Shown here in pieces: positions 1-15,769 of a stretch of DNA of 27,504 nt. The first letter of the stretch is position 1. Each line of letters starts with the position of its first letter. The position numbers and the translations under genes were made by a program. This stretch comes from a virus: positions 1 through 27,504 of IMG/VR virus record IMGVR_UViG_3300035670_005049, one strand, 5' to 3'. The notes under the pieces are model-generated. The model was not told the DNA's origin. It saw only the letters and a program-made list of their open reading frames with translations, and ran no database searches.

Positions 1-920
1 GATTCAAGGCGATCAACGAGCCGCACATCTTGGAAGTTATACTCCATGAACTTCTGAAAGTTCTGTGTGTAGAACTCCTGAATGGTTTCGTATTCCGCAT
101 ACGACAGTTTCTCTTCGCCCAACTCCACCTTGGAAATGTGATTGAGGGAGTAGGACTCCTGCTTCACATAGGTGAAAGTCTGATACAGTTCAAAGTAGTC
201 AAGCGTGGCAACACCGCTGATCACATACGCGGTCTGGTCGCGTCCCATGCGATTCACCACAGTCTCGCGGAGTTTGCCCCACGGCGAGAGGGAGTTCCCC
301 CATCCTTCTTCAAGGTAGTTCATCCGCGCCACTAGGTACGGAATATCAAAGAAGCGGATGTTCCATCCTGTCACGATGTCGGGATCAAGGAACCTCCAAA
401 GTTCAATGAACCCTGCAAGCAGTTCTTGCTCGTCATCATAAGGAATGCAGGAAACTCCCTCGCCGTCAATATGAAAGTCTCCCAAGCCTAGCACATAGGT
501 CTTGTCACCCATTGAGATCGTGATTGCAATGACCCGCTCGGTGGGAGCGGATGGCGTGGGAAAACCGCCGTCACACGATGTCTCAATGTCCAAGTTGGCT
601 ATGCGGAGGCTGCTGAAGTCGTAATCAACTTCATTGGGAAACTCCTTGTAAAGGTACTGGTACACAAAGTTGGTGTTTCCGTAGATGTCGTAGTTGGAGA
701 CATCCTTGAAACGGTCAATGAACTCGCGGGCTTCCCCGATGCCGTCAAACTGAATGGGCTGCACGGGCTTGCCGTTGATGGTGGTGAACTCTCCCGTGTC
801 CTTGGACGGGATGTAGAGGGTAGGGCAGAACGGGATGCGGAGATGCTGTCTCTGCCCGTTCTTCCATCCACGATACAGGATGTTCTTGCCACGAATGTCA
901 ACGGAAGTGTAGAAGTCCAC
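1..920 (-). CDS. 43: DNA polymerase gp43, family B (N-terminal part)
   Basis: Replicative family B DNA polymerase of the T4 type, cut by the window edge after about 306 residues. Only the N-terminal and 3'-5' exonuclease domains are visible. All three exonuclease motifs are present: Exo I with D111-I-E113, Exo II with GWN near 185-187 and FD at 191-192, and Exo III with Y294 and D298 (YNFQDV). The start is GTG at 920. An in-frame TGA lies just upstream, and AAGGAG at 925-930 is a good, slightly close ribosome site. It follows the GroES gene by about 8 bases. In T4, gene 43 directly follows regA; here regA lies 14 kb upstream in transcription order. T4 gp43 is about 898 residues, so roughly two thirds should lie beyond the window. 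The polymerase palm motifs cannot be checked here. Confidence 0.95.
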   Translation of the reverse strand, partial: MDFYTSVDIRGKNILYRGWKNGQRQHLRIPFCPTLYIPSKDTGEFTTINGKPVQPIQFDGIGEAREFIDRFKDVSNYDIYGNTNFVYQYLYKEFPNEVDYDFSSLRIANLDIETSCDGGFPTPSAPTERVIAITISMGDKTYVLGLGDFHIDGEGVSCIPYDDEQELLAGFIELWRFLDPDIVTGWNIRFFDIPYLVARMNYLEEGWGNSLSPWGKLRETVVNRMGRDQTAYVISGVATLDYFELYQTFTYVKQESYSLNHISKVELGEEKLSYAEYETIQEFYTQNFQKFMEYNFQDVRLVDRLE

Positions 921-4239: not shown

Positions 4240-4812
4240 TTAAACTCCCTTGTTAGCGTCCCATGAAAACTGTCCCGTGCTGCCGAATCCGCCTTCACGC
4301 TGCGTCTTCTTCAGTGGGGGGTGGTCAATCTTGCTGAACTCCACAGGCTGATTCCGCACCAGTTCGCCTTGGCAGATGCGCGATCCATTGGGAATGCTCA
4401 CCAAGCAGTTGCTCATGGCGGTCACCATCACCTTTAGTTCATCGGTGTAGTCAGAGTCAATCACGCCCTCCGCGTTCGCAAGCACCAAGCCCTCCTTCAG
4501 GGCAAGTCCGCTACGGGCATGGAGGCGCACCGAGTAGCCTTCAGGAATGTCTAGGATGAGTCCCGTGGGGATGAGGAACCGCCATCCCGCAGGAACATCA
4601 AGCACTCCCTGCGTGGGATAGATTTCGCTCTTTATGTTCTGCGGACCGTAGGCGACCACGGGCTTGTGGGCTTCCCAATCCGCTTCCGAGTTTTCGGGAT
4701 CGTGGTGGAAACGCGCACAGATATCAAAACACGCAGAGCCGTCTGTTGCGAATGCAGGAGCAGTTGCGCCTGTGTCGGGAATGCAATAGAAACCAAGTGT
4801 AGGCTTGTCCAT
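4240..4812 (-). CDS. dut: dUTP diphosphatase (dUTPase)
   Basis: A 190-residue trimeric-type dUTPase that hydrolyses dUTP to dUMP and pyrophosphate, keeping uracil out of phage DNA and feeding dTMP synthesis. All five motifs are visible: GSACFDI (25-31), RSGLALK (100-106), NAEGVIDSDYTDEL (113-126, with the catalytic Asp and Tyr region), GSRICQGELV (143-152) and the C-terminal REGGFGSTG (172-180). It exceeds the usual 150 residues because of an insert around 36-70. The ATG at 4812 has AAAGGAG 8 bases upstream and lies just behind a strong promoter, so it is probably the first gene of an early transcript. It is followed without a gap by the DUF1599-like gene. Confidence 0.95.
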   Translation of the reverse strand: MDKPTLGFYCIPDTGATAPAFATDGSACFDICARFHHDPENSEADWEAHKPVVAYGPQNIKSEIYPTQGVLDVPAGWRFLIPTGLILDIPEGYSVRLHARSGLALKEGLVLANAEGVIDSDYTDELKVMVTAMSNCLVSIPNGSRICQGELVRNQPVEFSKIDHPPLKKTQREGGFGSTGQFSWDANKGV

Positions 4813-4861: not shown

Positions 4862-5073
4862 TCCCACTGCTTCAGTATTAGTGTGTTCTTTTGTTTTTGA
4901 ATCCGTACACCGTAGCGGCGGTCGTGCTTCAGAACAGAGGCAAGATCGTTTTTGTAAATCTGCACACCCCGAGGCTTTGGCTTCACGGTGAAGGTGCTGT
5001 ACCAAACAACCAGTTTTCCTTCTGCTTGCTTCGGCTTTACGGTGTATGCAGTTTCTTTTACTTTTAGTTTCAT
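4858..5073 (-). CDS. Small basic protein of unknown function
   Basis: A 71-residue, lysine-rich protein (KLKVKETAYTVKPKQ at the start). It seems to be made of alternating beta strands: TVKPK occurs twice (11-15 and 29-33). No family is recognised. Its ATG overlaps the TGA of the upstream gene (ATGA at 5073-5070), which supports that it is translated. Its stop lies inside the -35 box of the dUTPase promoter, so it closes the upstream transcription unit. It could be a small nucleic-acid-binding or accessory protein, but there is no direct evidence. Confidence 0.6.
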   Translation of the reverse strand: MKLKVKETAYTVKPKQAEGKLVVWYSTFTVKPKPRGVQIYKNDLASVLKHDRRYGVRIQKQKNTLILKQWD

Positions 5074-5492
5074 CGGGTGTTCTTTGGAGCCACCACGAAC
5101 TGTCCTTGCATCAGTTCATCCGTAGTGACACCCTTGGTGATGTCCAAAGAATATTTCCATGATCCTGAACGAACATAACCCATTGTGGTGGCATCAGCAG
5201 TGATGAGGATTCCTCCTGTGAGTGCAGCACCCGTTTCACCCGTGTTGAGAGAGATGCCACCGCTGCCACTAATGCCTTGAGTGGCTCCGAACTCTCCTGT
5301 GGAGCCGCCACTGGTCACGCCTGATGTGGTAATCATCAAGTACATTTTGGACGAGTCATTGTTTGGGCGCACATGGAACCGCGCAGTGTATCCTGTCAGA
5401 TCAACAGGATCACCGTTGTCATCGTAGTACTCTGCATGAAAGTTCAGAGTGGAGTGCTGCTGTGCGTTGATGTCGTAGTACGCTGATGCCAT
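5070..5492 (-). CDS. Putative virion protein, baseplate/fibre-associated beta domain
   Basis: A 140-residue protein. The N-terminal half (AEYYDDNGDPVDLTGYTARFHVRP, about 20-43) resembles the strand pattern of phage baseplate upper-protein-like domains, where a DG.P.DLTG..V..QVR-type motif is common. A Gly/Ser/Thr-rich middle (58-90) and a final SGSWKYSLDI...VTTDELMQGQFVV segment follow. No signal or membrane segment is seen. The family assignment rests on pattern only. The start ATG overlaps the stop of the 43-codon gene (TAATG). It lies downstream of a glycosyltransferase with a late-type promoter-like sequence, which would suit a structural protein, but it could also be a non-structural accessory protein. 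Confidence 0.55.
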   Translation of the reverse strand: MASAYYDINAQQHSTLNFHAEYYDDNGDPVDLTGYTARFHVRPNNDSSKMYLMITTSGVTSGGSTGEFGATQGISGSGGISLNTGETGAALTGGILITADATTMGYVRSGSWKYSLDITKGVTTDELMQGQFVVAPKNTR

Positions 5493-5623
5493 TATCGTGC
5501 CTTTGCTGCTGCATTACGAGCGCGATTTGCGCTCTTGATCATTACGGCTGCTTTTCTTGCGCGGCGGGTCTTTGCGCTTGAGAATCCGCCCTTGCCTTTT
5601 CCTGATAGACTGTTTCTAGCCAT
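5492..5623 (-). CDS. Very basic 43-residue protein
   Basis: A short gene of 43 codons plus stop, coding for a protein rich in Lys, Arg, Ala and Ser (starts MARNSLSGKGKGGF, ends AAAKAR). It has no acidic residue in the translation I made by hand. Both ends are coupled: its ATG shares a base with the TGA of the glycosyltransferase gene (TGATG), and its TAA overlaps the ATG of the next gene (TAATG). The tight packing argues that it is real. Composition suggests DNA or RNA binding, or a packaged basic peptide, but no family is recognised. Confidence 0.6.
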   Translation of the reverse strand: MARNSLSGKGKGGFSSAKTRRARKAAVMIKSANRARNAAAKAR

Positions 5624-6861
5624 CACTTCCTCCGCTTCTTGAAACTCTTGATCTTCTGCTCTCCAGCAGTATTTAGTAAAGAGGGGGATGCTGTGGGCGC
5701 AACCTTTAGCGTCTGTGGTGTCTGCACTAGTTGATTTTGTGCTGCACCAATCTGCTGCAAACGCTCAAGGTAGGCAGCATGATTCTTCTGATTTCGCTCC
5801 ACTTCACCCTCTGGCAGTCTGTTCTGCTTCAGGAGGGCTTCACAGGCAGAAAAACCGCTCTTGTAGTCATGCACATAGAACGCGGTGGCAGCGAGTTCAT
5901 CCAGTGCCATCCACTTGTACACATTCGTGTCGATGAACAGGATGTCGTGCTGTGGGTACGGGATCTGGGCGGCTTCCTTCGCAAAAAGGTAAGCCGCCCG
6001 TGGTCGCCCGTTCATCCGAAGAAAACGCGCTATGGCATGGAGAGGTTCGGCACGGCAGGGTCGGTAGTCGTATGCATCAAGGAACTTCTGCTGAACCACT
6101 GGCCAGGCAGACTCCTTGGAGATTTCGCAAAGGGCAACGCGGAACAGGGAGTAGTAGCACTCCTCTTCCCATCCGCCCATCTCAACCCGCTTGTAGTACG
6201 CTTCGATAGCCTTGTCCCACTGCTGCGAGTCAAAATACGACTGTGCAAGGTAGAACTGATACCGTGAGTTGTTCGGCTCTGTCTTGAGGGCTTCCACTAG
6301 GAGTTCAGCGTCCTTGGAGTACTTCTCCACGGGAGTGACCCCGCCGTTGCGCTCCTGACCAAGAGTACGAGCCTCAAGGTAGTACTCTCCCTCAATCTTC
6401 TCCTGATGGAGAGGCTGCTTGTCACAGTGAGCGTATTCGTGCAGTACGCCCACATACTTCCAACCGATGCCTGTCTTGAAGATTTGGTTGCGCCACCACA
6501 CGCAGCCTTCGCGTCCGCACTTGATGGCGTAAGCGTCTGCGGTCATGTTCTTCCCGTGTGGATACTTGAATCCACCAACCACGCGGTCATCCGCATCAAT
6601 CATCCACGCATAGTCTGCCTTGCCTGTGCAGAGGTCAAGTGCTTCAGTGCGGTTGTGTCCAAAGTTCACCCAAGGGCGTTCAATGAGTTCGCCAGGAATG
6701 CCCTTCTCGGCAAAGTACTTCTTGATGTACTCCTGCGTTCCGTCCGTGGAGCCTGTATCCACGATCACCCAGTAGTCGATGTGGGGATGAACCGAGTCCA
6801 AGCACTCATGCAGGATCTTGGTTTCGTTCTTGACGATCATAGAGAGGCATACTGTAGACAT
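5623..6861 (-). CDS. Family 2 glycosyltransferase with helical-repeat C-terminus
   Basis: A 412-residue protein. Residues 1-150 form a GT-A glycosyltransferase domain: SMIVKNE (7-13), VDTGSTDGT (34-42) and the metal/sugar-nucleotide motif DADD (89-92). From about 175 the protein is helical with TPR-like units (PNNSRYQFYLAQSYFDSQQWDKAI type), a combination seen in many bacterial and phage GT2 proteins. The C-terminal 35 residues are Ala/Thr/Lys-rich and end in KSFKKRRK. The substrate is unknown. The ATG at 6861 has AAGGAG about 10 bases upstream. It is the last enzyme of the sugar cassette, and a CATAAATA late-type element precedes it, so it may be expressed separately from the rest. Confidence 0.85.
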   Translation of the reverse strand: MSTVCLSMIVKNETKILHECLDSVHPHIDYWVIVDTGSTDGTQEYIKKYFAEKGIPGELIERPWVNFGHNRTEALDLCTGKADYAWMIDADDRVVGGFKYPHGKNMTADAYAIKCGREGCVWWRNQIFKTGIGWKYVGVLHEYAHCDKQPLHQEKIEGEYYLEARTLGQERNGGVTPVEKYSKDAELLVEALKTEPNNSRYQFYLAQSYFDSQQWDKAIEAYYKRVEMGGWEEECYYSLFRVALCEISKESAWPVVQQKFLDAYDYRPCRAEPLHAIARFLRMNGRPRAAYLFAKEAAQIPYPQHDILFIDTNVYKWMALDELAATAFYVHDYKSGFSACEALLKQNRLPEGEVERNQKNHAAYLERLQQIGAAQNQLVQTPQTLKVAPTASPSLLNTAGEQKIKSFKKRRK

Positions 6862-6883
6862 TGGTCACGATCTCCTTGTACGG

Positions 6884-7825
6884 TTATTTATGCGCGGCGA
6901 TCCAGTCTTCAAGACGAACTTTCGGAGTCCATCCAAGATGTTCTTTTGCTTTGTTTGCGTTGGCTAGGGTAATCCTAGACTCACCTTGGCGAGGAGGAAT
7001 GTTTACTGTTTTTCCACCCATCATGGAGGCTATTTGATTAACAGAGTGATTTGTTCCTGTTCCAATATTGTAAATCTGACCCCACTCCCAATTAGTATAC
7101 ACCCGACAACTTCCAACATCATGAACACTGTACTCTGGAGCAGTGAACTCCGATGCCTTGATGTTTGCTTCCACTACATCACCCACATAAGTAAAATCTC
7201 GCCGCTGATCACCGTCACCCACAATAGTCATTGGTTCTCCTGCTGCCCGCTGACGCAGAAAGATTCCGATCACAGGCGCATACTGCCCACGCAGGGGCTG
7301 ACGCTCACCGTATACATTGAAATAACGGAAGATGATTGTCTCCAGTCCGTACAGTTTGGAATACATCTTGCACAACTCTTCTCCACCAGTCTTGGAAACT
7401 GAGTACGGGTTCAAGCAATCGTTGGGCATGGTTTCAACGAGAGGAGGGGTGTTCTTCAGACCATATGCCGATGATGTGGACGAATAGATTACTCGCTTGA
7501 CACCACACACCCGAGCGCACTGCAACACGCTGGCTGTACCAAGCATATTGGCTTCCACCGCCTTGAGCGGATCTTCAATACACGGTTGAATCCTCGCTTC
7601 CGCAGCAAGGTGAAAAACCGTGTCCACACCCTCATACAGTCTGCGAACCATCGTGTAGTCATTGATGTCGTGCTTGTAGTTCTTAGCAGCAGGATTCCAG
7701 TAGAACTGATCATGTGCATCGGATGATTCGTTGTCGATCACCGTGACATCATGTCCATCTGCCACCAAACGATCCACAAGATTCGATCCAATGAAACCCG
7801 CTCCACCTGTTACTAGTGCTTTCAT
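6884..7825 (-). CDS. NAD-dependent sugar-nucleotide epimerase/dehydratase (UDP-glucose 4-epimerase-like)
   Basis: A 313-residue extended short-chain dehydrogenase. It has the Rossmann motif GGAGFIGS (7-14), DIND (53-56), FHLAAEA (71-77), the serine-rich SSTSSAYG (115-122) and catalytic Y141 and K145 in YSVSK. RYFNVYG and DFTYVGDVV are the usual substrate-side motifs. The family interconverts UDP-sugars; UDP-glucose to UDP-galactose is the most economical guess, because the next gene is UDP-galactopyranose mutase, which uses UDP-galactose. Length matches the family (310-340). The ATG overlaps the mutase stop (ATGA). Other epimerases (GlcNAc, xylose) remain possible. Confidence 0.85.
   Translation of the reverse strand: MKALVTGGAGFIGSNLVDRLVADGHDVTVIDNESSDAHDQFYWNPAAKNYKHDINDYTMVRRLYEGVDTVFHLAAEARIQPCIEDPLKAVEANMLGTASVLQCARVCGVKRVIYSSTSSAYGLKNTPPLVETMPNDCLNPYSVSKTGGEELCKMYSKLYGLETIIFRYFNVYGERQPLRGQYAPVIGIFLRQRAAGEPMTIVGDGDQRRDFTYVGDVVEANIKASEFTAPEYSVHDVGSCRVYTNWEWGQIYNIGTGTNHSVNQIASMMGGKTVNIPPRQGESRITLANANKAKEHLGWTPKVRLEDWIAAHK
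6885..6892 (-). promoter_or_regulatory. Late promoter-like element CATAAATA
   Basis: The minus strand reads CATAAATA, one base from the T4 late consensus TATAAATA. It overlaps the last codons and stop of the epimerase gene and lies about 24 bases before the glycosyltransferase ATG, a workable distance for a late transcript. gp55, the late sigma factor, is coded in this window. One match of this length can occur by chance. Confidence 0.35.
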
Positions 7826-8913
7826 CGCTCAATTTCCTTTTCGCTGCGTGTCAGGGCAGACCCCACCACTTGGTGCATATCGTAATACTTGTAGTCTGCC
7901 AAGCGACCACCGAATATGTATCTGTCGGTGTCGATCCTGTTCTTGTACTGAATATACAGTTGGTTATTTCTATCGTCTGTGACAGGATAGAACTTCTCTT
8001 TTGTGCTGTCCCAGTTCTGCGGATACTCACGGGTAATGACTGTGTGATCCTGTTTTCCAAAGATGAAATGCTTGTGTTCCACCACACGGGTATACGGAAT
8101 TTTCGCATCCGTATAGTTTACTGCTGCGACTCCCTGATAGTCGGGAATCTGTAGCGTCTGGTGTTCAAACCGCAGACTTCTCCATTCAAGACTACCCAGA
8201 TCGGAACCAAAGAATTCGTCTATTGCTCCCGTGTACACAACCTTTCGAGCCATGACCTCAAAACGATCACGATCTCTTAAAAAATCAACTCCTGTCTCAA
8301 CGGGAATGCCACTCAAGAGTTTTTCAAAGATTGGCGTGTATCCGTCAACAGGGATGCCCTGATATTTGTCTTCAAAGTAGTTGTCATCGTAAGTGAGCCG
8401 AATGGGAAGCCGCTTGATGATGGACGCAGGAAGATCCTTTGGATCTCGGTTCCATTGCTTTGTCGTATAGCCCCTCACAAACTTCTCGTAAATCTCTTCT
8501 CCCACTTGAGATAGCACCCACTCCTCAAGATTAGATGGATGTGGAATGGCAATCCGTACTTGTGCAAGTTTGTCCCGTGCTTCTTGCGGAGTCTTCACGC
8601 CCCACAATTGATACAGAGTTAGCAAATTGATGGGGAACGAATACAGGTTGTCTCCGTGGATTACGCGAGGGCGGTACACAAAATGGTTGAACCGCGTCCA
8701 CCTGTTCATGTATTCCCATACGCGGTCGCTGCTCGTATGGAATATGTGTGGACCGTATTCGTGAACATGGATTCCGCCTTCATCACGGGTGTAGCAGTTC
8801 CCGCCGATGTGATTGCGCTTGTCCACAACAAGACAACGCGCACCCGCATCAGTCATCTGTCGCGCAAATATTGCGCCAAACAGTCCAGAACCAACAATCA
8901 GATAATCATACAT
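7822..8913 (-). CDS. glf: UDP-galactopyranose mutase
   Basis: A 363-residue flavoenzyme that converts UDP-galactopyranose to UDP-galactofuranose. Visible motifs are the FAD-binding GSGLFGA (8-14), RNHIGGNCY (33-41), HEYGPHIFHT (51-60), SFPINLLTLYQLWG, GYTTKQWNRDP, and the C-terminal FGGRLADYKYYDM...V segment with conserved Arg and Tyr. The length agrees with bacterial Glf (about 370). It forms a pair with the epimerase: epimerase supplies UDP-Gal and the mutase UDP-Galf. A galactofuranosyltransferase would be expected among the cassette's transferases, but which one cannot be told. The ATG at 8913 overlaps the preceding gene by 8 bases. Confidence 0.95.
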   Translation of the reverse strand: MYDYLIVGSGLFGAIFARQMTDAGARCLVVDKRNHIGGNCYTRDEGGIHVHEYGPHIFHTSSDRVWEYMNRWTRFNHFVYRPRVIHGDNLYSFPINLLTLYQLWGVKTPQEARDKLAQVRIAIPHPSNLEEWVLSQVGEEIYEKFVRGYTTKQWNRDPKDLPASIIKRLPIRLTYDDNYFEDKYQGIPVDGYTPIFEKLLSGIPVETGVDFLRDRDRFEVMARKVVYTGAIDEFFGSDLGSLEWRSLRFEHQTLQIPDYQGVAAVNYTDAKIPYTRVVEHKHFIFGKQDHTVITREYPQNWDSTKEKFYPVTDDRNNQLYIQYKNRIDTDRYIFGGRLADYKYYDMHQVVGSALTRSEKEIER

Positions 8914-9565
8914 TGAAGACTATACCGCGTTCTTCGACTGTGGTGCGGGAGCAGAGGCGTGGCTCCACAGTCTTATGTGTCAAGAAATAGTACCACAACT
9001 GCTCAAACATGATGCCCAAACGCAAATCATTCAGTTCAGTCTGATCCATGATCCAATCGTAACACTTCTGATAGAACGACAGAGGGTTTCTCAAAATGGA
9101 CTCTCGGGGAGCCACGAACTGTGCTGACATTGTGTGTTCAAGTTTAGATGGGAACGGCAAATCAATACAGTGCCACGCCAGTTTCATTTGATCCCAAACA
9201 ATCTGATCAGGACATCCTTCAAACAACAGATTACGGTAGTACGGATTGTTGAGGGTATAGAACTCCTGCCCATGATAATCCTCAAGTGCTTCAAGAACTG
9301 TTCTGTCCTGATGCCAAGCAGTGTCGTGTCCGTGACAGAAAGCAACATGGTCAGGAAACGAATCGTACCGATCAATGATGAACTTCAGATACGAAGAGGT
9401 TTCCTTTCCTTTGTTGGGAAGCAGCACAACTCGCTCGGGAGAGATACCGTACTTAGAAACCTCTGTTTCGTTTTTGGAGTAGACCACGAAATCGTATTCG
9501 GTCTGATTCACCAACCATGTCAAATTTTCTGAATAATGCGAGGCTAGGATCAGCGGCTTGTTCAT
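8906..9565 (-). CDS. DUF3431-like protein, probable glycosyltransferase-related
   Basis: A 219-residue protein. The segment VLLPNKGKETSSYL (about 48-61), then IIDRYDSFPDHVAFCHGHDTAWHQD, matches the pattern of DUF3431: NxGRE..YL..I...YD.LPD...F.H. This family is frequent in fungi and also found in bacterial sugar loci. The function is not established, but context and conserved His/Asp residues suggest sugar transfer. The start is ATG at 9565, with GGAG 6 bases upstream and an ATGA overlap with the preceding stop. An earlier in-frame start at 9598 would lie inside the preceding gene and is less likely. No membrane segment or signal is seen. Confidence 0.6.
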   Translation of the reverse strand: MNKPLILASHYSENLTWLVNQTEYDFVVYSKNETEVSKYGISPERVVLLPNKGKETSSYLKFIIDRYDSFPDHVAFCHGHDTAWHQDRTVLEALEDYHGQEFYTLNNPYYRNLLFEGCPDQIVWDQMKLAWHCIDLPFPSKLEHTMSAQFVAPRESILRNPLSFYQKCYDWIMDQTELNDLRLGIMFEQLWYYFLTHKTVEPRLCSRTTVEERGIVFNV

Positions 9566-10002
9566 CTTTTTCTCCAATCTTCGGGATAATCCGTACACAC
9601 TCCAAGTGCATCTACTGGCAGATGGTAATCCGCAGGGTAGTCCTTCACCACAGTGATGCCTCCCGCCATGTGGTTGTCAGGATAGCACCAAGGAATCCCT
9701 CTGCTAGTCAAAGTATATCGGTCGGTTTCGTGCCAGAAGCAGTGGAGTCCCGCAGACAGCATTTGCTCAAGAGCAGCAGCATTCTTTGCGTGACACCACA
9801 GCACTTCTTGAAGTTCCTTCAGCCAAGTTCCGTAAACTCGGTACTGCGGGGAATCGTGTCCAAGGTAATACTCGCCATCCACATACCACACATCCACCTC
9901 AACATCGTAGCCAGCATCTATCGCTGCCTGAATGTATGACGGATGATTCTCCTGTTCGGGATTTCTCCCAGTCAAGTTTCCTCGGTGTGATATGATCTTC
10001 AT
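9562..10002 (-). CDS. Short GDPD-like phosphodiesterase homologue
   Basis: A 146-residue protein with the start of a glycerophosphodiester phosphodiesterase-like TIM barrel: SHRGN with H6-R7, a PEQENHPSYI segment (15-24), VEVDVW with E35 and D37, and LGHD with H49. These are the catalytic and metal positions of GDPD enzymes. It is much shorter than a full GDPD (about 240), and the second half of the barrel is reduced, so it may have a special substrate or be non-catalytic. Proteins of this type also occur in surface-polysaccharide loci. Here it follows the nucleotidyltransferase with a 3-base gap, and a link to phosphate-bearing sugars is inference. Confidence 0.65.
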   Translation of the reverse strand: MKIISHRGNLTGRNPEQENHPSYIQAAIDAGYDVEVDVWYVDGEYYLGHDSPQYRVYGTWLKELQEVLWCHAKNAAALEQMLSAGLHCFWHETDRYTLTSRGIPWCYPDNHMAGGITVVKDYPADYHLPVDALGVCTDYPEDWRKR

Positions 10003-10005
10003 GGC

Positions 10006-10725
10006 TTATCGAACCGTTTTTGCCAAGAATGCGTTCAGGTCTTCGGGAGTGCCGATTCCGTGCATCTCTTGAACATAGAAAGGAATCACCGTCTTGCCTG
10101 TGGATATCATCTCGTTGTACACGGGGGCGATGTAGAACTCGTTGTTGACGCGAATATTCTTGGCAATCATGCTTTCCGCTGCCTCAACGAAATCCTTTCC
10201 CCGCCGATACCAGTATATCCCGCAAGTTGCTACATTTGAAATGGGAATCTTCTCTGCCACTTCAGACACGAAACCCGCACCATCAATCTTTGCAAATGAC
10301 CACTTGGGGTGAACCGCGTTGAATGTGAACACGATCCCATCCACCGATGTCAGGTTCTTCATCGTGATGAAATTCTCGGGACGATATTCGATTATCTGAT
10401 CGGAATTTGCAATCAGCAGATCATCATCGTTGTTGATGTGTTCCTTTGCCAATAGAGCAGTGCAAGCAGCACCTTCGGTCAGCCCATCAACCTCAACAAT
10501 CTTGAAGCGTCCGCCCGTAATGCGGAGCAGAGTGGTCAGAAGCCCTTCGTACTTTTGCAGATGCTCCTTGCGGACAAGAAAGATGAACTCTGCGGGGAAC
10601 TTAAGGTTTTCAACCACCTTTTGGATCATGGGCTTTCCGTCCACATCAATCAGTGGCTTCGGAAAGGTGTATCCTTCTTTTGCAAATCTGCTGCCTTCGC
10701 CAGCCATAGGAATAAGGATCTTCAT
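10006..10725 (-). CDS. Sugar-phosphate nucleotidyltransferase
   Basis: A 239-residue NTP_transferase-family protein. The N-terminal signature is IPMAGEGSRF (5-14) followed by FPKPLIDVDGKPMI (21-34), which binds the nucleotide and sugar phosphate. The acidic IANSDQII in the middle gives the metal-binding Asp. It would activate a sugar 1-phosphate (or similar) with an NTP. It is short, without a left-handed beta-helix domain, so resembles the compact CDP/GDP-sugar types found with HAD phosphatases in capsule loci. The exact nucleotide and sugar cannot be read from the sequence. ATG at 10725 overlaps the HAD gene's stop (ATGA). Confidence 0.85.
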   Translation of the reverse strand: MKILIPMAGEGSRFAKEGYTFPKPLIDVDGKPMIQKVVENLKFPAEFIFLVRKEHLQKYEGLLTTLLRITGGRFKIVEVDGLTEGAACTALLAKEHINNDDDLLIANSDQIIEYRPENFITMKNLTSVDGIVFTFNAVHPKWSFAKIDGAGFVSEVAEKIPISNVATCGIYWYRRGKDFVEAAESMIAKNIRVNNEFYIAPVYNEMISTGKTVIPFYVQEMHGIGTPEDLNAFLAKTVR

Positions 10726-11327
10726 TTCACAATCTCCTTGTAGTTCTCAAGAGTGACTTCTGATGGGTTTGCAACAACCCACAGATTCGGGACACACGAT
10801 GCACGGGCAGCGGCAACCCCTTTGGGCGAGTCCTCAACACACAGACACGCAGACGGATCGACACCAAGAGTCTTCACCGCAAAGTTGTAGCAATCGGGAT
10901 ACGGCTTGTTGTTGGGAACATCCCCGTTGCTCACGATAAGATCCATGAACTTGATCTGTCCTGTCTGCCGAAGCATGGCTGTAGCCGTGATGTGGATGGA
11001 ATTCGTCACACAGGCTATCTTGATGCCTTGGCTTTTCAGGTACGAGTGCAGTTCCTGTTTTTCTGGCATCACTGTTGCCTGATCCGCTATCATCTCAAGT
11101 GTCTTTATCTGCTTCAAGTTTTCGATTCGTGATGCCGTGCAAGATTCGATTCCAAGCATTCGTAGTTTGACTGCTGTTGGTAATCCGTTATACTTGGAAA
11201 CATGGTCTTCGTGTGATATTTGAAAACCCACGATTTCTTGTAGGGCTTCGTTCAGTGCTTGATAGTGCCATTCACAGGCATCAACAAGAACGCCATCAAG
11301 ATCAAACAAAACGCATTCTATCCTCAT
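10722..11327 (-). CDS. HAD-superfamily phosphatase (beta-phosphoglucomutase-like)
   Basis: A 201-residue haloacid dehalogenase-fold enzyme. Motif I is D9-L-D11-G (FDLDGVLVDA), a helical cap follows (20-75), motif II is CVTNS (about 105-109), the lysine motif lies in NNKPYPDCY, and the acidic motif is CVEDSPKGVAAA. This is the classic layout of sugar phosphatases and beta-phosphoglucomutases. Beside a nucleotidyltransferase it probably removes or moves a phosphate on the sugar precursor (inference). The start ATG overlaps the stop of the upstream gene (ATGA). The length is normal for the family (200-220). Confidence 0.85.
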   Translation of the reverse strand: MRIECVLFDLDGVLVDACEWHYQALNEALQEIVGFQISHEDHVSKYNGLPTAVKLRMLGIESCTASRIENLKQIKTLEMIADQATVMPEKQELHSYLKSQGIKIACVTNSIHITATAMLRQTGQIKFMDLIVSNGDVPNNKPYPDCYNFAVKTLGVDPSACLCVEDSPKGVAAARASCVPNLWVVANPSEVTLENYKEIVK

Positions 11328-12130
11328 GCCGTGCCTCTTTCCAAGAGATGCTGTATGTCCGCTGCGTAAGCAGTATACGGACGAAGTGAATGGAAGTCAA
11401 TATGCGTTCCCGCACCAAACGCAGAAATTTGAATACCGATGCGCGATCTACACAATCGGTTTTGCGGCAAGATCCGCTGACCTGTGGCAACAGAACCGCC
11501 TGCGCGATAGTATTCCCTCAACAGAGAGGTGGAGTACATTTCATCTATTCCCCACATACCGCCGTTGGCAGCACTTGCCTTTTGCAGATGTGCTTCTGGC
11601 GTGGTGGCAAAACCGCTCTCGTACTCGCTGTAGTCTCGGTTCATTAGTTTGGTCATCTCATCGGCATACGATTCAGAGAAACGGTACACCGCGTTGAGCA
11701 TTTCTGCCGTAGCCAAATGGTAGCACACGGGAACCGTGATGCCACCGCTCTTCCAACACTCAAAATTCCCAACATGATACGCATCTGCATTCAGGTGCGT
11801 GTAGCAATCAACGCGGGGATTTGCGGTTTCCAAGAAGAACTTGCGCGACAGAGGAAACATATCAATATCGCTGATCAGGCACATCTTGGTGGGGAAAAAC
11901 TTGGTAACCCAAAACCGTCCCCATGTAGCAGCAATGTAGTCGGGAACGCCTTCTATGGCATCGTGATAGATAACGGTTCCGTGTTCTTCGGACAGAGAAG
12001 GATTGCCCTTTCCGTAATAGAACAGCACGGGATGAATCCCGAAGTTCTGCTTCCAGTGTTTGGAAATGGGATTCCAAAACTCCCAATACATGGGGTCATC
12101 ATTGCAAGAAAGGGTCACAATATCAATCAC
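11324..12130 (-). CDS. Putative glycosyltransferase (GT-A fold)
   Basis: A 268-residue protein of unassigned family. The clearest feature is LISDIDMFPLSRKFF (about 85-99), an acidic D-x-D motif in the position used for metal and nucleotide-sugar binding by GT-A enzymes. It follows a first half (DIVTLSCNDDPMYWEFW) like the opening strand of such folds. CWKSGGI and NGGMWGIDEMY suggest the acceptor side. The start is GTG at 12130, three bases after the upstream stop, with GAGG upstream. It is likely soluble. The call rests on fold-like motifs and on its place in the sugar cassette. Confidence 0.6.
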   Translation of the reverse strand: MIDIVTLSCNDDPMYWEFWNPISKHWKQNFGIHPVLFYYGKGNPSLSEEHGTVIYHDAIEGVPDYIAATWGRFWVTKFFPTKMCLISDIDMFPLSRKFFLETANPRVDCYTHLNADAYHVGNFECWKSGGITVPVCYHLATAEMLNAVYRFSESYADEMTKLMNRDYSEYESGFATTPEAHLQKASAANGGMWGIDEMYSTSLLREYYRAGGSVATGQRILPQNRLCRSRIGIQISAFGAGTHIDFHSLRPYTAYAADIQHLLERGTA

Positions 12131-12133
12131 GGG

Positions 12134-12775
12134 TCACCTCAAAGTGAAAACTCTGTCTTCTATGTAGCCACGATCAAATTCCCTGCGGAGAAGTACAGTG
12201 TACTCAAAACGATTCACGGAAACGCTTTGATTGTTGTAGCGATTCAGTATTTCAGAATGGCAGGGAACTTCCGATTCACAATACGCGCCGATACGACCAA
12301 ACAGGGAGCAGTAGTTGGACATGATTGCGGGAGAACCTAATCCAACCATATCAAACAGTCCTCCTCTCCAATCACCACCAAGAGGAACATTCAGGCAATC
12401 CATGCTGAAGTTTTCAAGACGGAGGGGGTTCGTATACTTCAAATCATATCGTGTCTTCAGCACGCAATCGTATTCTCTGTCTACCAATCCAAAAGCGATC
12501 TCTATGTTTCGCCATTGGCACATCACACCAAAGGCGTTTACCTCTGGTGGCTTATTTGTCTCGCAAGCAGGAGGAACAGGAAATGAAACAGAAGACTTCT
12601 CTTCTAAAACAAATCGCTTTGGAGAATACATCTTCAGGACTTCTTCCGTGTTCTCGTCTTTGTACAGGTGGAGAAATAAGTCGCAGTTGTTCTGCGAAAG
12701 AATGCAGGCATTGAGCGAGGGATAGCAGTCACGAAAGGTTCGTGCATCTCCTGCTATGATTACCGCTGTTTTCAT
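12134..12775 (-). CDS. Putative glycosyltransferase of a phage/LPS-locus family
   Basis: A 213-residue protein starting with a single strand (TAVIIAGDARTFRDCYPSL), then CDLFLHLYKD. The acidic RYDLKY motif at about 109-114, in VLKTRYDL, is reminiscent of WavE-type lipopolysaccharide transferases and of related uncharacterised phage proteins. The GGDWRGGLFDMVGLGS block would suit a substrate loop. No signal peptide or membrane segment is visible. The ATG overlaps the stop of the methyltransferase-like gene (ATGA). The family link is by motif only; the sugar and acceptor are unknown. Confidence 0.55.
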   Translation of the reverse strand: MKTAVIIAGDARTFRDCYPSLNACILSQNNCDLFLHLYKDENTEEVLKMYSPKRFVLEEKSSVSFPVPPACETNKPPEVNAFGVMCQWRNIEIAFGLVDREYDCVLKTRYDLKYTNPLRLENFSMDCLNVPLGGDWRGGLFDMVGLGSPAIMSNYCSLFGRIGAYCESEVPCHSEILNRYNNQSVSVNRFEYTVLLRREFDRGYIEDRVFTLR

Positions 12776-13278
12776 CCAAGCACCGCTTGCAAATCGTACT
12801 TGTTGCTGACCACTGTAGTCGTTACGGGGAAAACATCGTAGTCATAGACAGAACTGAAGTGTCCCTCTAGTTGCTTCCATCCGTATGATGGCTCTTCGGA
12901 ATCGTGATACAGTATCACATCAACCTTGTCCTTCAGACGCAAGATGTCCGTGATGCGCCGCTCACCAGGCGCGTGATCCACAAAAGCAATACTCCAGTGC
13001 TTGTTCCAGTCAACAATATCGTACACCGCATCCCAATTTCCGTTGGGAACGAAGTGTAGATTGTGGTTGGGCTTCTTCCACAGGTTCTTCCCGTGAACTC
13101 CAGAATTCATCATGTTGTACCACGATTCATTAGACTCAAACGAACACAACTCGCCTTCAACAAGAGTACACATGACAGGACTTGAACCCATTCCCGTACC
13201 AAACTCAATCACATTTCCACCAAATTTGGAAATGCACTTTGCGAGAATAGGGATGTGGGTCAGGCACGGATCAATCAT
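12772..13278 (-). CDS. Class I SAM-dependent methyltransferase-like protein
   Basis: A 168-residue protein with a Rossmann-type methyltransferase opening: NVIEFGTGMGSSP (about 22-34) matches motif I (E-x-G-x-G), and SFESN (about 46-50) fits the acidic end of strand 2. SIAFVDHAPGERR and VDVILYHDSEE mark later strands. Family members in glycan loci methylate sugars, but this one is compact and has no recognised acceptor domain. It lies between two putative glycosyltransferases with ATGA overlaps at both ends. O-methylation of a sugar residue is plausible; it may also be a non-catalytic relative. Confidence 0.6.
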   Translation of the reverse strand: MIDPCLTHIPILAKCISKFGGNVIEFGTGMGSSPVMCTLVEGELCSFESNESWYNMMNSGVHGKNLWKKPNHNLHFVPNGNWDAVYDIVDWNKHWSIAFVDHAPGERRITDILRLKDKVDVILYHDSEEPSYGWKQLEGHFSSVYDYDVFPVTTTVVSNKYDLQAVLG

Positions 13279-13973
13279 GGTGTTTCTGCTTTCTGCAATA
13301 CAGCAATATCGGAATCGCTGTTGTGGTTTTCATTTTCATCAAAGCACTGTCCTACAAACCACACACCACCGTTCTCTTCTCCGCGCTTTGCCCCTTCGGG
13401 AAACGGGGACTTCTGAAAGAACGGATCGTGAACGCAGACTGTGAGTTCGCCGTCCTTTACCTTGTCCCACACCCATTCCCACAAGAACGCCTGATCCTGT
13501 CCCTTGTCGCTGCTCGGCTGAAACTCTTCCATGTCACGGGAGATGCCCTTGAGTTTGCCGCCCTTTACGCCCCACATACCGCCAAGCATGGGAACACCGT
13601 GATACGGATGGTCGCGCATCAAATGAAGATCCGCACCACTGGCAATCCAAGCGTCAACCGCCAGCCGCTCACGCTCGGACAGACGGGAATCTGTATCGCG
13701 GCTCATCATGTACTCTACGCCCTCTTCGTCTGCGGGAAGGAAACGGTGGAACATACCACGGCTATCTGCGGTATTGTAATCACCCTCCACCCGCCGAACA
13801 AGCACATTCGGACGAGATTCCAACTGGGCGATTATTTCTGCGGGAACAGACTGAAAGCAGTAAAACACACAAGTCCAATCAGGGAACAGTTTCGCTGCTA
13901 GATCCGCATTCCGAACCGCACCAACCGTATATGTGGGCTTGTCTCCCCACAGACTGTAGGAGATTACCTTCAC
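13275..13973 (-). CDS. Putative glycosyltransferase-like protein
   Basis: A 232-residue protein. The core motif SRDTDSRLSERE (about 90-101) has the D-x-D arrangement of GT-A enzymes, followed by HLMRDHPYHGVPMLGGMWGVKGG. The N-terminal ISYSLWGDKPTYTVGA looks like the first beta strand of a sugar-nucleotide fold. Similar proteins occur in phage and bacterial polysaccharide regions, without a described activity as far as I know. The start is GTG at 13973, overlapping the upstream TGA (GTGA), with AGGAG 5 bases before it. Confidence 0.6.
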   Translation of the reverse strand: MKVISYSLWGDKPTYTVGAVRNADLAAKLFPDWTCVFYCFQSVPAEIIAQLESRPNVLVRRVEGDYNTADSRGMFHRFLPADEEGVEYMMSRDTDSRLSERERLAVDAWIASGADLHLMRDHPYHGVPMLGGMWGVKGGKLKGISRDMEEFQPSSDKGQDQAFLWEWVWDKVKDGELTVCVHDPFFQKSPFPEGAKRGEENGGVWFVGQCFDENENHNSDSDIAVLQKAETP

Positions 13974-14608
13974 TGCTGCTCCTGTGGAACGAGCGATTCA
14001 GTGGTCTTTGAGTTGTAAATGTAGCCGTGAAGTGCATCGGGGATGTGATGCTCGGTCTGAATCTTGGGATACAGACGCATGAGCCAGTCAATGTCTTCCG
14101 TGGACTGACCGTTGGCACCATACACGGGATTGAATGCCTCGGTGATTGCAATCTCCCGCCGCCACAGACACATATGGTAAGGAGGACGCTTGATGTCTCC
14201 AAGGAAGCCGTCCTCGTCGCGCCACAGGTGTCCATGCGGATTGCCGATGCCGAACTCCACATCCATCGGCTCACCGTCAAGGCTGCACCACTGGTTGAAC
14301 GAGATGCAGTCCACATCGTTCTCGTCAATAGCCTTCAGGATCTTGCTCATGTAGTCCTTACTGACGGCATCGTCATCGTCCAAGAACGCGATATACTTGC
14401 CCCGTGCCATTTGCAGGAGATCATTGCGCTTTTCGGAAATACTCTTGGACTTGTTGTCAAGCAGGACAAGAATCTCAACAGACTTGCCCTGCCCCGTGGC
14501 ATCGGCTTGTTCCTGTAGATGATTGACCGCCGCCTTTAGCGATTCAAAACGGGACGGGATGGACAAAATGAGAATACTGAACTTGATTTCACTTGCTGGT
14601 ACTGGCAT
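13970..14608 (-). CDS. Family 2 glycosyltransferase
   Basis: A 212-residue GT2 enzyme: FSILILSIPSR (10-20), a nucleotide-sugar region around ILVLLDNKSKSISEKRN (46-62) and the metal motif FLDDDDAVS (75-83). STEDIDWLMRL near residue 180 gives the conserved ED..W acceptor motif, used for base catalysis. The start is taken as ATG at 14608, which overlaps the preceding gene by 20 bases and has GGAG about 10 bases upstream. A longer version to 14755 would run through that gene in another frame without any GT2 homology, so was not used. The substrate is unknown. Confidence 0.8.
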   Translation of the reverse strand: MPVPASEIKFSILILSIPSRFESLKAAVNHLQEQADATGQGKSVEILVLLDNKSKSISEKRNDLLQMARGKYIAFLDDDDAVSKDYMSKILKAIDENDVDCISFNQWCSLDGEPMDVEFGIGNPHGHLWRDEDGFLGDIKRPPYHMCLWRREIAITEAFNPVYGANGQSTEDIDWLMRLYPKIQTEHHIPDALHGYIYNSKTTESLVPQEQQ

Positions 14609-15293
14609 AGAACATAGTCTCCATATCAAACTTGTTTGCGGCGCGCCGCTCAAAGGTTTCACCATCAATCCCGTACATTTCCGCGTTTTCGTTACGGGCG
14701 TGAAGCGTGTCAAACGGTTCATGTGTCCACTGGTGCTGAATAATGCAGATATCACAGCGGCGCAACTTGTTCAACGCAGCGCACACCTGTGTCTGCTCGT
14801 TGTCGCAGTACAGGGACTTGTATTCAGGATTGTAGATGTAGCCGAATCGCTTGTAGAGTGGGAATCCCATGACCGTCAGGGTCATCAGCGGGTCTTCCTT
14901 TGGACGCAGACCATCCCAGAACTTGATTGCGCCATCGTAGTCAGGGAAAGCCTGCTCGTACACCTTGGCAATGATGTCATCGTAACCCATCTGCACGGGA
15001 ACCATGTCATCGGACGCAAGCAGCAGCACATCGCCGTCCACGCCCTCTAGGTTCGCGTTGCAAGCCTCAATCTTGCTCTTGGAGTTGCCGTAGAAGCACT
15101 CAATCTGCGCGTTCTGTGCGCGAGTGGCAAACCACTGCTGCATCTCTGGGTTGTTCATCGTGGGATCGTCTTCGTCCATCGTGACGATGAAACGCACATC
15201 ATGCCGTCCACTGAGGAAGGTAAGATAGCGCGTAAACACAGCCTTGAACTTGTCGGGACGATTACGAGTCGGGAACTTGATCACTAGGTTCAT
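14589..15293 (-). CDS. Glycosyltransferase family 2-like protein
   Basis: A 234-residue protein with a GT2-like start (LVIKFPTRNRPDKF, 3-16), an acidic VTMDEDDPTM block (37-46) and LLLASDDMVP (about 89-98), which is the likely D-D metal motif. A later WTHEPFDTLHARNE region replaces the usual acceptor end. It is the first gene of the sugar cassette after regA. The ATG at 15293 has a strong AAGGAG 8 bases upstream. The gap before it (15294-15331) holds a CATAAT box but no good -35 box, so a promoter there is uncertain. Confidence 0.75.
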   Translation of the reverse strand: MNLVIKFPTRNRPDKFKAVFTRYLTFLSGRHDVRFIVTMDEDDPTMNNPEMQQWFATRAQNAQIECFYGNSKSKIEACNANLEGVDGDVLLLASDDMVPVQMGYDDIIAKVYEQAFPDYDGAIKFWDGLRPKEDPLMTLTVMGFPLYKRFGYIYNPEYKSLYCDNEQTQVCAALNKLRRCDICIIQHQWTHEPFDTLHARNENAEMYGIDGETFERRAANKFDMETMFYASTSK

Positions 15294-15331: not shown

Positions 15332-15769
15332 TCACTCTTCGGGCTTCATGTTTTTCTTTGAACGACCAATATGATATTTCGGACACAGTTCCCACTCCCC
15401 CTTCTCCTTGAAGGGCAGAATCTTTATTTTGTTCAGGGGAACCTTGTCCGTGATCTTGGCTTTGTCCACGATCTTCACCAATCCCCACTCCTCAAGCAGA
15501 CACGCAATGGTGTTCCGCCGTCCAGTGTCTTCGGTGTTGATGGAGGTGGGTAGATCGTCAAGCGCAAACATCTCCTTGAAGTGGACAATGTAGTACTTGC
15601 CCTTCTTGTGGAGGATATGGCAGGACTGCCACAACTTCTTTTCGGCTCGGGACGATACGCCAATGCGGGTCAGCGTTTCACGGACTTTCAAGAAGTCATC
15701 AGGTTTCTGTAGCGTGACCTCAAGCAGATCGGTTGTCTCAAGGTCGATGTAGCGTTCGTTTTGTTCCAT
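15332..15769 (-). CDS. regA: RegA translational repressor
   Basis: A 145-residue homologue of T4 RegA (122 residues). Strong matches are LQKPDDFLKVRETLTRIG (20-37), QSCHILHKKGKYYIVHFKEMF (48-68), the RR.TIACLLEEWGLVKIV block and the WELCPKYHIG end. In T4, RegA binds start regions of early mRNAs, including those for the clamp loader, and blocks ribosome loading. The protein has a short extra N-terminal stretch (MEQNERYIDLETTD) and a KK-rich end (RSKKNMKPEE) compared with T4. ATG at 15769 has GGGAG about 10 bases before it. It follows gene 62 as in T4, but gene 43 does not follow it. Confidence 0.95.
   Translation of the reverse strand: MEQNERYIDLETTDLLEVTLQKPDDFLKVRETLTRIGVSSRAEKKLWQSCHILHKKGKYYIVHFKEMFALDDLPTSINTEDTGRRNTIACLLEEWGLVKIVDKAKITDKVPLNKIKILPFKEKGEWELCPKYHIGRSKKNMKPEE

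Follow-up and report, generated by a model that had tools for sequence, protein, structure and literature searches.

The sugar gene cassette between regA and gene 43

The IMG/VR virus record IMGVR_UViG_3300035670_005049 provides a 27.5-kb fragment of an uncultured T4-like phage, and its positions 1–27,504, the whole stretch that was analysed, are referred to here as the window. In T4, regA (29972–30340) is directly followed by gene 43 (27197–29893). As an earlier note on this DNA had recognised, a cassette of sugar genes separates regA from the gene 43 region in the window, where positions 5623–15293 are filled by same-strand, mostly overlapping genes. Comparison with related phages shows that this is a cassette-exchange locus, the interior of which is replaced between conserved outer genes. 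The genes of the locus are listed below in their order from regA, with the flanking genes at either end.

15332–15769, minus strand: regA, translational repressor, left boundary of the locus (PF01818, E = 2e-42; phrog_242, E = 1e-56)
14589–15293, minus strand: GT234, GT-A-like glycosyltransferase, conserved first cassette gene (phrog_14945 glycosyltransferase, E = 1e-8)
13970–14608, minus strand: GT2b, family-2 glycosyltransferase, conserved second cassette gene and left homology arm (PF00535, E = 6e-10)
13275–13973, minus strand: x232, probable glycosyltransferase, allele-dependent third gene (no family match)
12772–13278, minus strand: x168, methyltransferase-like by eye only (no family match)
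12134–12775, minus strand: MT213, probable glycosyltransferase by motif (PF25072, DUF7796, E = 3.5e-7; phrog_13607)
11324–12130, minus strand: x268, probable glycosyltransferase (no significant family; motif D88xD90)
10722–11327, minus strand: HAD, phosphatase (PF13419, E = 5e-30)
10006–10725, minus strand: NTPt, sugar-1-phosphate nucleotidyltransferase (PF00483, E = 3e-8; NDP-sugar pyrophosphorylase PDB 4evw, E = 1e-23)
9562–10002, minus strand: h34507, GDPD-like by motif (phrog_34507, E = 1e-34, a family without assigned function)
8906–9565, minus strand: DUF3431 protein, of a family without assigned function (PF11913, E = 6e-29)
7822–8913, minus strand: GLF, UDP-galactopyranose mutase, for the galactofuranose donor (PF03275, E = 2e-73)
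6884–7825, minus strand: EPI, UDP-glucose 4-epimerase-like (PF16363, E = 5e-59; PDB 4zrm, E = 6e-51)
5623–6861, minus strand: GT2_TPR, family-2 glycosyltransferase with TPR, conserved last cassette gene (PF00535, E = 3e-12)
5492–5623, minus strand: 43-amino-acid Arg/Lys-rich open reading frame (ORF), start and stop overlapping its neighbours
5070–5492, minus strand: p1084, right boundary of the glycan locus (phrog_1084, E = 3e-14)
4240–4812, minus strand: dUTPase, early in the block that runs to gene 43 (phrog_135, E = 5e-36)
3–920, minus strand: gene 43, DNA polymerase, truncated at the edge of the window (phrog_262, E = 6e-101)

The cassette thus comprises 13 ORFs, all on the minus strand, rather than the 12 genes counted earlier. 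Most junctions overlap by 4–8 bases, counting DUF3431 from its conserved start at 9565, and the cassette is accordingly built into the replication operon, as had been proposed. The start of GT2b is most likely ATG 14608, which lies behind a GGAG-like site; with this start GT2b would overlap GT234 by 20 bases. The other cassette junctions are gaps of 3, 3, 22 and 38 bases. The cassette interior has a G+C content of 46–49%, compared with 51–55% in the flanks. In the marine cyanophage S-SM2, regA and gene 43 are separated by no more than hsp20 and two small genes.

The sugar-related roles assigned earlier are upheld by Pfam matches above the database cut-offs for GT2_TPR, EPI, GLF, NTPt, HAD and GT2b, but x232, x168 and x268 have no significant family. 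The nearest solved relative of GLF is PDB 4mo2, which matches over its full length (E = 1e-132). The DxD motif of x268 (D88xD90) is invariant across an aligned family of 8. GT234 is called a glycosyltransferase by PHROG only. Its structure model is of low confidence (predicted local distance difference test score, pLDDT, 51); GT-A enzymes make up nearly all of its best PDB matches, with no match below E = 1e-3, and the model is too poor to prove the fold.

Interior exchange between near-identical phages

Relatives were gathered through regA (80 in total). Among them, phages with 99.7–100% identical replication proteins carry three unrelated interiors, each recovered again in a second metagenome. 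The DNA of G003 and G006 is 93.5–97.5% identical up to the end of GT2b, has nothing in common over the following 10.3 and 9.0 kb, and resumes at 94.4% identity from the end of EPI and start of GT2_TPR. Similarly, the replication genes of the window and G004 are mostly 90–97% identical in DNA (98% for the polymerase gene), with no similarity detected from x232 to GLF, 87% identity in EPI and 84% in GT2_TPR. The identity of the window to its relatives stops at the end of GT2b, and EPI belongs to the right homology arm in most alleles. Swapping probably occurs by homologous recombination in the conserved outer genes.

The converse arrangement, one interior on divergent backbones, was also found. 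The window interior is complete and in the same order in L010, L014 and L050, the replication proteins of which are 91, 89 and 74% identical to those of the window, and window-type interiors occur on at least four backbones. Across 190 locus pairs, which are not independent and for which no p-value is claimed, the sharing of interiors shows no correlation with replication-protein identity (Spearman 0.05). The third cassette gene is either x232 or an unrelated gene, c4, depending on the allele, and this state requires at least 10 changes on a replication-protein tree of 33 tips; five recurrent alleles require at least 7 changes on a tree of 14 tips. By the authors' own grouping, there are approximately 13 interior types among 20 loci. 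The locus therefore combines a fixed place with variable content among close relatives, as in a hypervariable (metaviromic) island, and conserved ends with an exchangeable interior, as in surface polysaccharide loci.

As all of the data are metagenome contigs, the apparent exchange could in principle have been created by assemblers that joined different phages through the conserved outer genes. One contig, the 32-kb G010, does look odd: after its first replication region it carries a second gp45-gp44-gp62-regA-dUTPase block (L259, 17618–20931), which is approximately 40–60% identical to that of the window and represents either a chimeric contig or a second module. Assembly error is nevertheless highly improbable, because each of three interiors on near-identical backbones was assembled in two metagenomes (L018/L021, L015/L019 and L014/L020), with 99.93–100% identity over 7–16 kb, and because window-type interiors recur on at least four backbones.

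Age and distribution of the locus

GT234 is present in 13 of 13 long records of the window's clade and in none of the four outside it. The ends of the clade's locus are kept, with GT234 and GT2b beside regA and usually an epimerase, together with GT2_TPR, at the far end. In a distant group (L052 and L054–L058), a homologue of p1084 directly follows regA, which corresponds to an empty site. The description of the cassette as inserted consequently holds relative to T4 and to relatives such as L052, but within the clade the locus is ancestral and only its interior turns over. All close relatives have a glycan locus at this position, as an ancestral region would require, and yet their gene sets differ. 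Since the locus occurs in all 13 long clade records, the reading as a simple one-off insertion was rejected, and the locus is better described as old, with an interior that can be replaced.

In L092 (G007), two extra genes of 305 and 194 amino acids lie between regA and GT234, and so the left edge can gain genes too.

Selection and sugar pathways of the alleles

The ratio of non-synonymous to synonymous substitution (dN/dS) is 0.04–0.19 for the 13 cassette genes and p1084 (Nei–Gojobori method; several dS values are near saturation), with x168 at 0.04–0.05. These values reflect purifying selection and indicate that the cassette genes are in use. Pfam searches of 84 families from other alleles identified FkbM, C- and other methyltransferases, epimerases, transketolase, transaldolase, DegT aminotransferase, kinases, cytidylyltransferase-like proteins, and GT10, GT25 and GT47 transferases. 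Judged by these family matches, the interior gene sets of the other alleles are predicted routes to unusual sugars.

The highly variable content might suggest passenger DNA that serves only to fill the head, as has been considered for the lipopolysaccharide (LPS) clusters of large cyanophages (PMC3037559). This is hardly credible here, given the low dN/dS of every measured gene, the overlapping junctions, the full-length catalytic genes and the retention of GT234 in every in-clade record.

GT2_TPR and its tail-protein neighbours

GT2_TPR contains a PF00535 domain at residues 8–108, followed by TPR at approximately 183–240. The earlier suggestion to search the transferases against structure databases was informative for this enzyme: the best solved glycosyltransferase matches of the GT2_TPR profile were GmaR (E = 4e-9), and 7msk and SunS (both about 5e-6), whereas those of GT234 and x268 matched nothing in the PDB. 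GT2_TPR is thus akin in sequence, although remotely, to characterised protein glycosyltransferases. The substrate of SunS is a peptide, which the enzyme glycosylates. The glycosyltransferase domain of GmaR places N-acetylglucosamine on flagellin (PMC9638930), and the TPR domain of FlmG binds its flagellin substrate (PMC7591256).

GmaR, SunS and 7msk, like GT2_TPR, combine a family-2 glycosyltransferase domain and TPR helices in one soluble protein. GT2_TPR differs from them in its single short detected TPR stretch, its C-terminus and its phage operon context. FlmG is a GT-B enzyme unrelated to GT2_TPR, which it resembles in logic rather than in fold. On the basis of domain content and kinship, GT2_TPR is proposed to be an initiating protein glycosyltransferase.

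A wider search for GT2_TPR revealed three architectures. The window has regA-[variable sugar genes]-GT2_TPR-p1084-dUTPase. Many low-G+C phages have a large form, regA-[variable sugar genes]-GT2_TPR-p1084-[fibre genes]-dUTPase. At least 13 loci have a minimal form, regA-GT2_TPR-dUTPase, in which GT2_TPR is the only sugar gene. Loci listed with the minimal form are L309, L310, L312, L314, L315, L317–L319, L321, L322, L324, L327, L328, L330 and L333.

The next recognised gene after GT2_TPR is p1084 in 60 of 79 viral loci, and in 57 it lies within 250 bases. In the window, the 43-amino-acid ORF couples the two genes. This ORF is present in G001, G004, G010 and G011; in several relatives that lack it, p1084 directly follows GT2_TPR. 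The structure model of p1084 (pLDDT 75) is an immunoglobulin-like β-sandwich, a predicted tail- or baseplate-type fold, and Foldseek matched it to the baseplate of phage 80alpha (6v8i, E = 4e-5) and to phage minor tail and BppU-N proteins.

Downstream of p1084, collagen-like Gly-X-Y runs occur in 22 of 29 distant loci, several being rich in Gly-Ala-Thr and Gly-Pro-Thr. Pfam Collagen was detected in six of nine downstream proteins tested (E = 1e-42 to 3e-7); one more has a Gly-rich domain. As cited in PMC9614988, BclA of the Bacillus exosporium bears oligosaccharide side chains on its collagen-like region. In the window's clade p1084 is kept at the cassette and the collagen-like protein is encoded elsewhere, near ThyX in G001–G004. 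In these four longest in-clade records, the collagen-like frames lie near 142.5, 84.9, 47.1 and 40.0 kb, close to thyX. Transferase genes are therefore linked to virion protein genes; in the window the linkage extends to p1084 only, the virion role of which is itself predicted.

A model for virion glycosylation

The earlier note left three functions open: virion decoration, modification of the host surface and glycosylation of DNA. With moderate confidence, we favour the first, in which T4-like aquatic phages of an uncultured clade use an exchangeable glycan locus to put a strain-specific glycan on a virion appendage. Virion decoration is favoured because GT2_TPR is akin to protein glycosyltransferases and linked to tail-protein genes.

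The acceptor, its linkage to the glycan, the order of the sugars and the biological role may be pictured as follows. GLF, EPI, NTPt, HAD and their partners would make donor sugars in the cytosol. To judge by its kinship and TPR domain, GT2_TPR probably binds a virion protein there and starts the glycan on it with a first sugar. The other transferases would extend this sugar with allele-specific sugars, here including galactofuranose from GLF. The likely acceptors are tail appendages, namely p1084, the collagen-like fibres, or both. The interior would supply the strain-specific activated sugars and transferases and be swapped like the O-antigen and capsule genes of bacteria. The variable glycan probably changes adsorption, or shields the particle from binding proteins, decoys or grazers.

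Several observations weigh against this model. The collagen-like fibres of the window's own clade are not beside the cassette, and the tightest linkage is seen in distant relatives. Phages with the minimal form lack p1084 beside GT2_TPR. GT2_TPR is only remotely related to SunS and GmaR, and GT234, x232, x268, MT213 and x168 are recognised weakly or not at all by profile. Finally, a glycan made by the phage could be flipped or ligated by enzymes of the host, and missing export genes therefore need not preclude a host-surface target.

This last point bears on the possibility that the cassette remodels a surface glycan of the host (LPS core, O-antigen or capsule precursor) against superinfection. 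The gene content resembles that of bacterial surface-polysaccharide loci, glycosyltransferases of pelagimyophages have been interpreted in this way (PMC7029224), and the location in the replication operon makes expression during infection plausible. Nonetheless, the flippase family PF01943 was found in none of 12 records, and none of 277 cassette ORFs from 18 loci is predicted (by hydropathy only) to have more than one membrane segment. De novo surface polysaccharide is disfavoured, because there is neither a flippase family nor a polytopic membrane protein. Furthermore, the conserved enzyme at the far end resembles protein glycosyltransferases and is tied to tail-protein genes. Remodelling of the host surface is thus the less likely function.

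Glycosylation of phage DNA against host nucleases, as in T4 or RB69, appears very unlikely. Sugar modification of DNA is established in T4-like phages (PMC6024577, PMC12838424), and the cassette does sit in the DNA replication operon. T4-style DNA glucosylation is disfavoured, however, because no dCMP hydroxymethylase/thymidylate synthase family member (PF00303) was found in 17 records, which include two of 150 and 147 kb and may be incomplete, while the same search found T4 gene 42. Relatives of up to 150 kb carry ThyX instead of a PF00303 member. Thanatos, which carries a pentose on its DNA, still encodes a hydroxymethylase. A search for Tet/JBP, run without a positive control, gave no match. 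In addition, the many exchangeable sugar pathways are not readily explained by DNA modification.

Source phage and gene order

All window genes are on the minus strand. They comprise, in order, tail tube, uvsY, dCMP deaminase, uvsW, and genes 55, 47, 46 and RNase H; then 45, 44, 62, regA, the sugar cassette, p1084 and dUTPase; and finally more small genes, speD, a DNA methyltransferase, a GroES-like gene and gene 43. A methyltransferase related to this gene 43 neighbour lies between genes 44 and 62 in L027 (8524) and L033 (5554). A search for a T4-type late promoter before p1084 or the cassette detected no TATAAATA in the window, where the single ATAAATA is at 6891.

The clamp loader of the window shares at most 57% identity with that of any isolate; marine Synechococcus and Methylophilales phages come closest. 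In the relatives, psbA was sought as a sign of a cyanobacterial host and was not found. Cassette DNA in a DNA similarity search, and GT234 and p1084 by tblastn, gave no match among phage isolates. Tracing a host or donor through the nearest bacterial GLF was also uninformative, as the sole close match (77%) is on a probable phage contig and the rest are at about 56% or less. This contig, L097, is a 6.4-kb member of a Crocinitomicaceae bin (36% G+C) that carries the interior of phage allele B in the phage allele order, ending GLF-EPI. It is probably a misbinned phage contig, and possibly a hint at the host or donor.

Relation to known systems and implications

Sugar gene clusters have long been known in large aquatic phages, their function being left as 'functional or stuffer DNA' (PMC3037559). 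The LPS/glycosyltransferase clusters of marine cyanomyoviruses and the host-recognition island of pelagimyophages (PMC3037559, PMC7029224) likewise place sugar genes in a variable region of T4-like aquatic phages. Those islands lie near hli03/phoH or between VrlC and gene 14, whereas the present locus lies between regA and gene 43. It further differs from them in that the same outer transferases frame discrete interiors, which are exchanged among near-identical backbones, and in that the gene at its end is similar to protein glycosyltransferases.

Bacterial O-antigen and capsule loci share the conserved ends and the replaceable middle for strain-specific sugars; they differ in that no flippase or polytopic membrane protein was found at the present locus, which sits in a phage replication operon.

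For mycobacteriophages, phage transferases have been proposed to act on virion proteins (Freeman 2023, as described in PMC12619734 and PMC12691614). From those descriptions, phage-encoded transferases would serve virion proteins as proposed here; the present locus differs in encoding complete pathways for donor sugars, which are exchanged as alleles. Chloroviruses and giant viruses encode cytoplasmic glycosylation of particle proteins, and a giant-virus enzyme glucosylates a collagen-like protein (PMC9614988). That machinery parallels the present proposal by description and belongs to eukaryotic viruses.

Variable sugar regions in T4-like aquatic phages (PMC3037559, PMC7029224) and, as reported via PMC12619734, virion glycosylation in mycobacteriophages are thus already known. 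In the open-licence literature, no exchangeable phage glycan locus of this layout was found, the layout being an exchange architecture at regA with conserved end transferases and a protein-glycosyltransferase-like enzyme next to tail-protein genes.

More tentatively, and at somewhat less than even confidence, it is proposed that T4-like aquatic phages have serotypes. Near-identical phages would carry different oligosaccharides on collagen-like tail appendages through an exchangeable locus in which GT2-TPR starts the glycan. Selection on particle recognition would maintain the diversity of this locus, in parallel with that of the O-antigens and capsules of the hosts.

The locus offers a clean natural comparison, in which several unrelated sugar cassettes occupy a fixed position between conserved end enzymes on nearly the same backbone, and it names GT2_TPR as a candidate for the sugar-to-protein step. 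If the virions are glycosylated, the minimal regA-GT2_TPR-dUTPase form would illustrate a possible starting point of such a system. The surface chemistry of phages would then switch quickly, much as capsule type does in bacteria, which would matter for adsorption and for phage typing.

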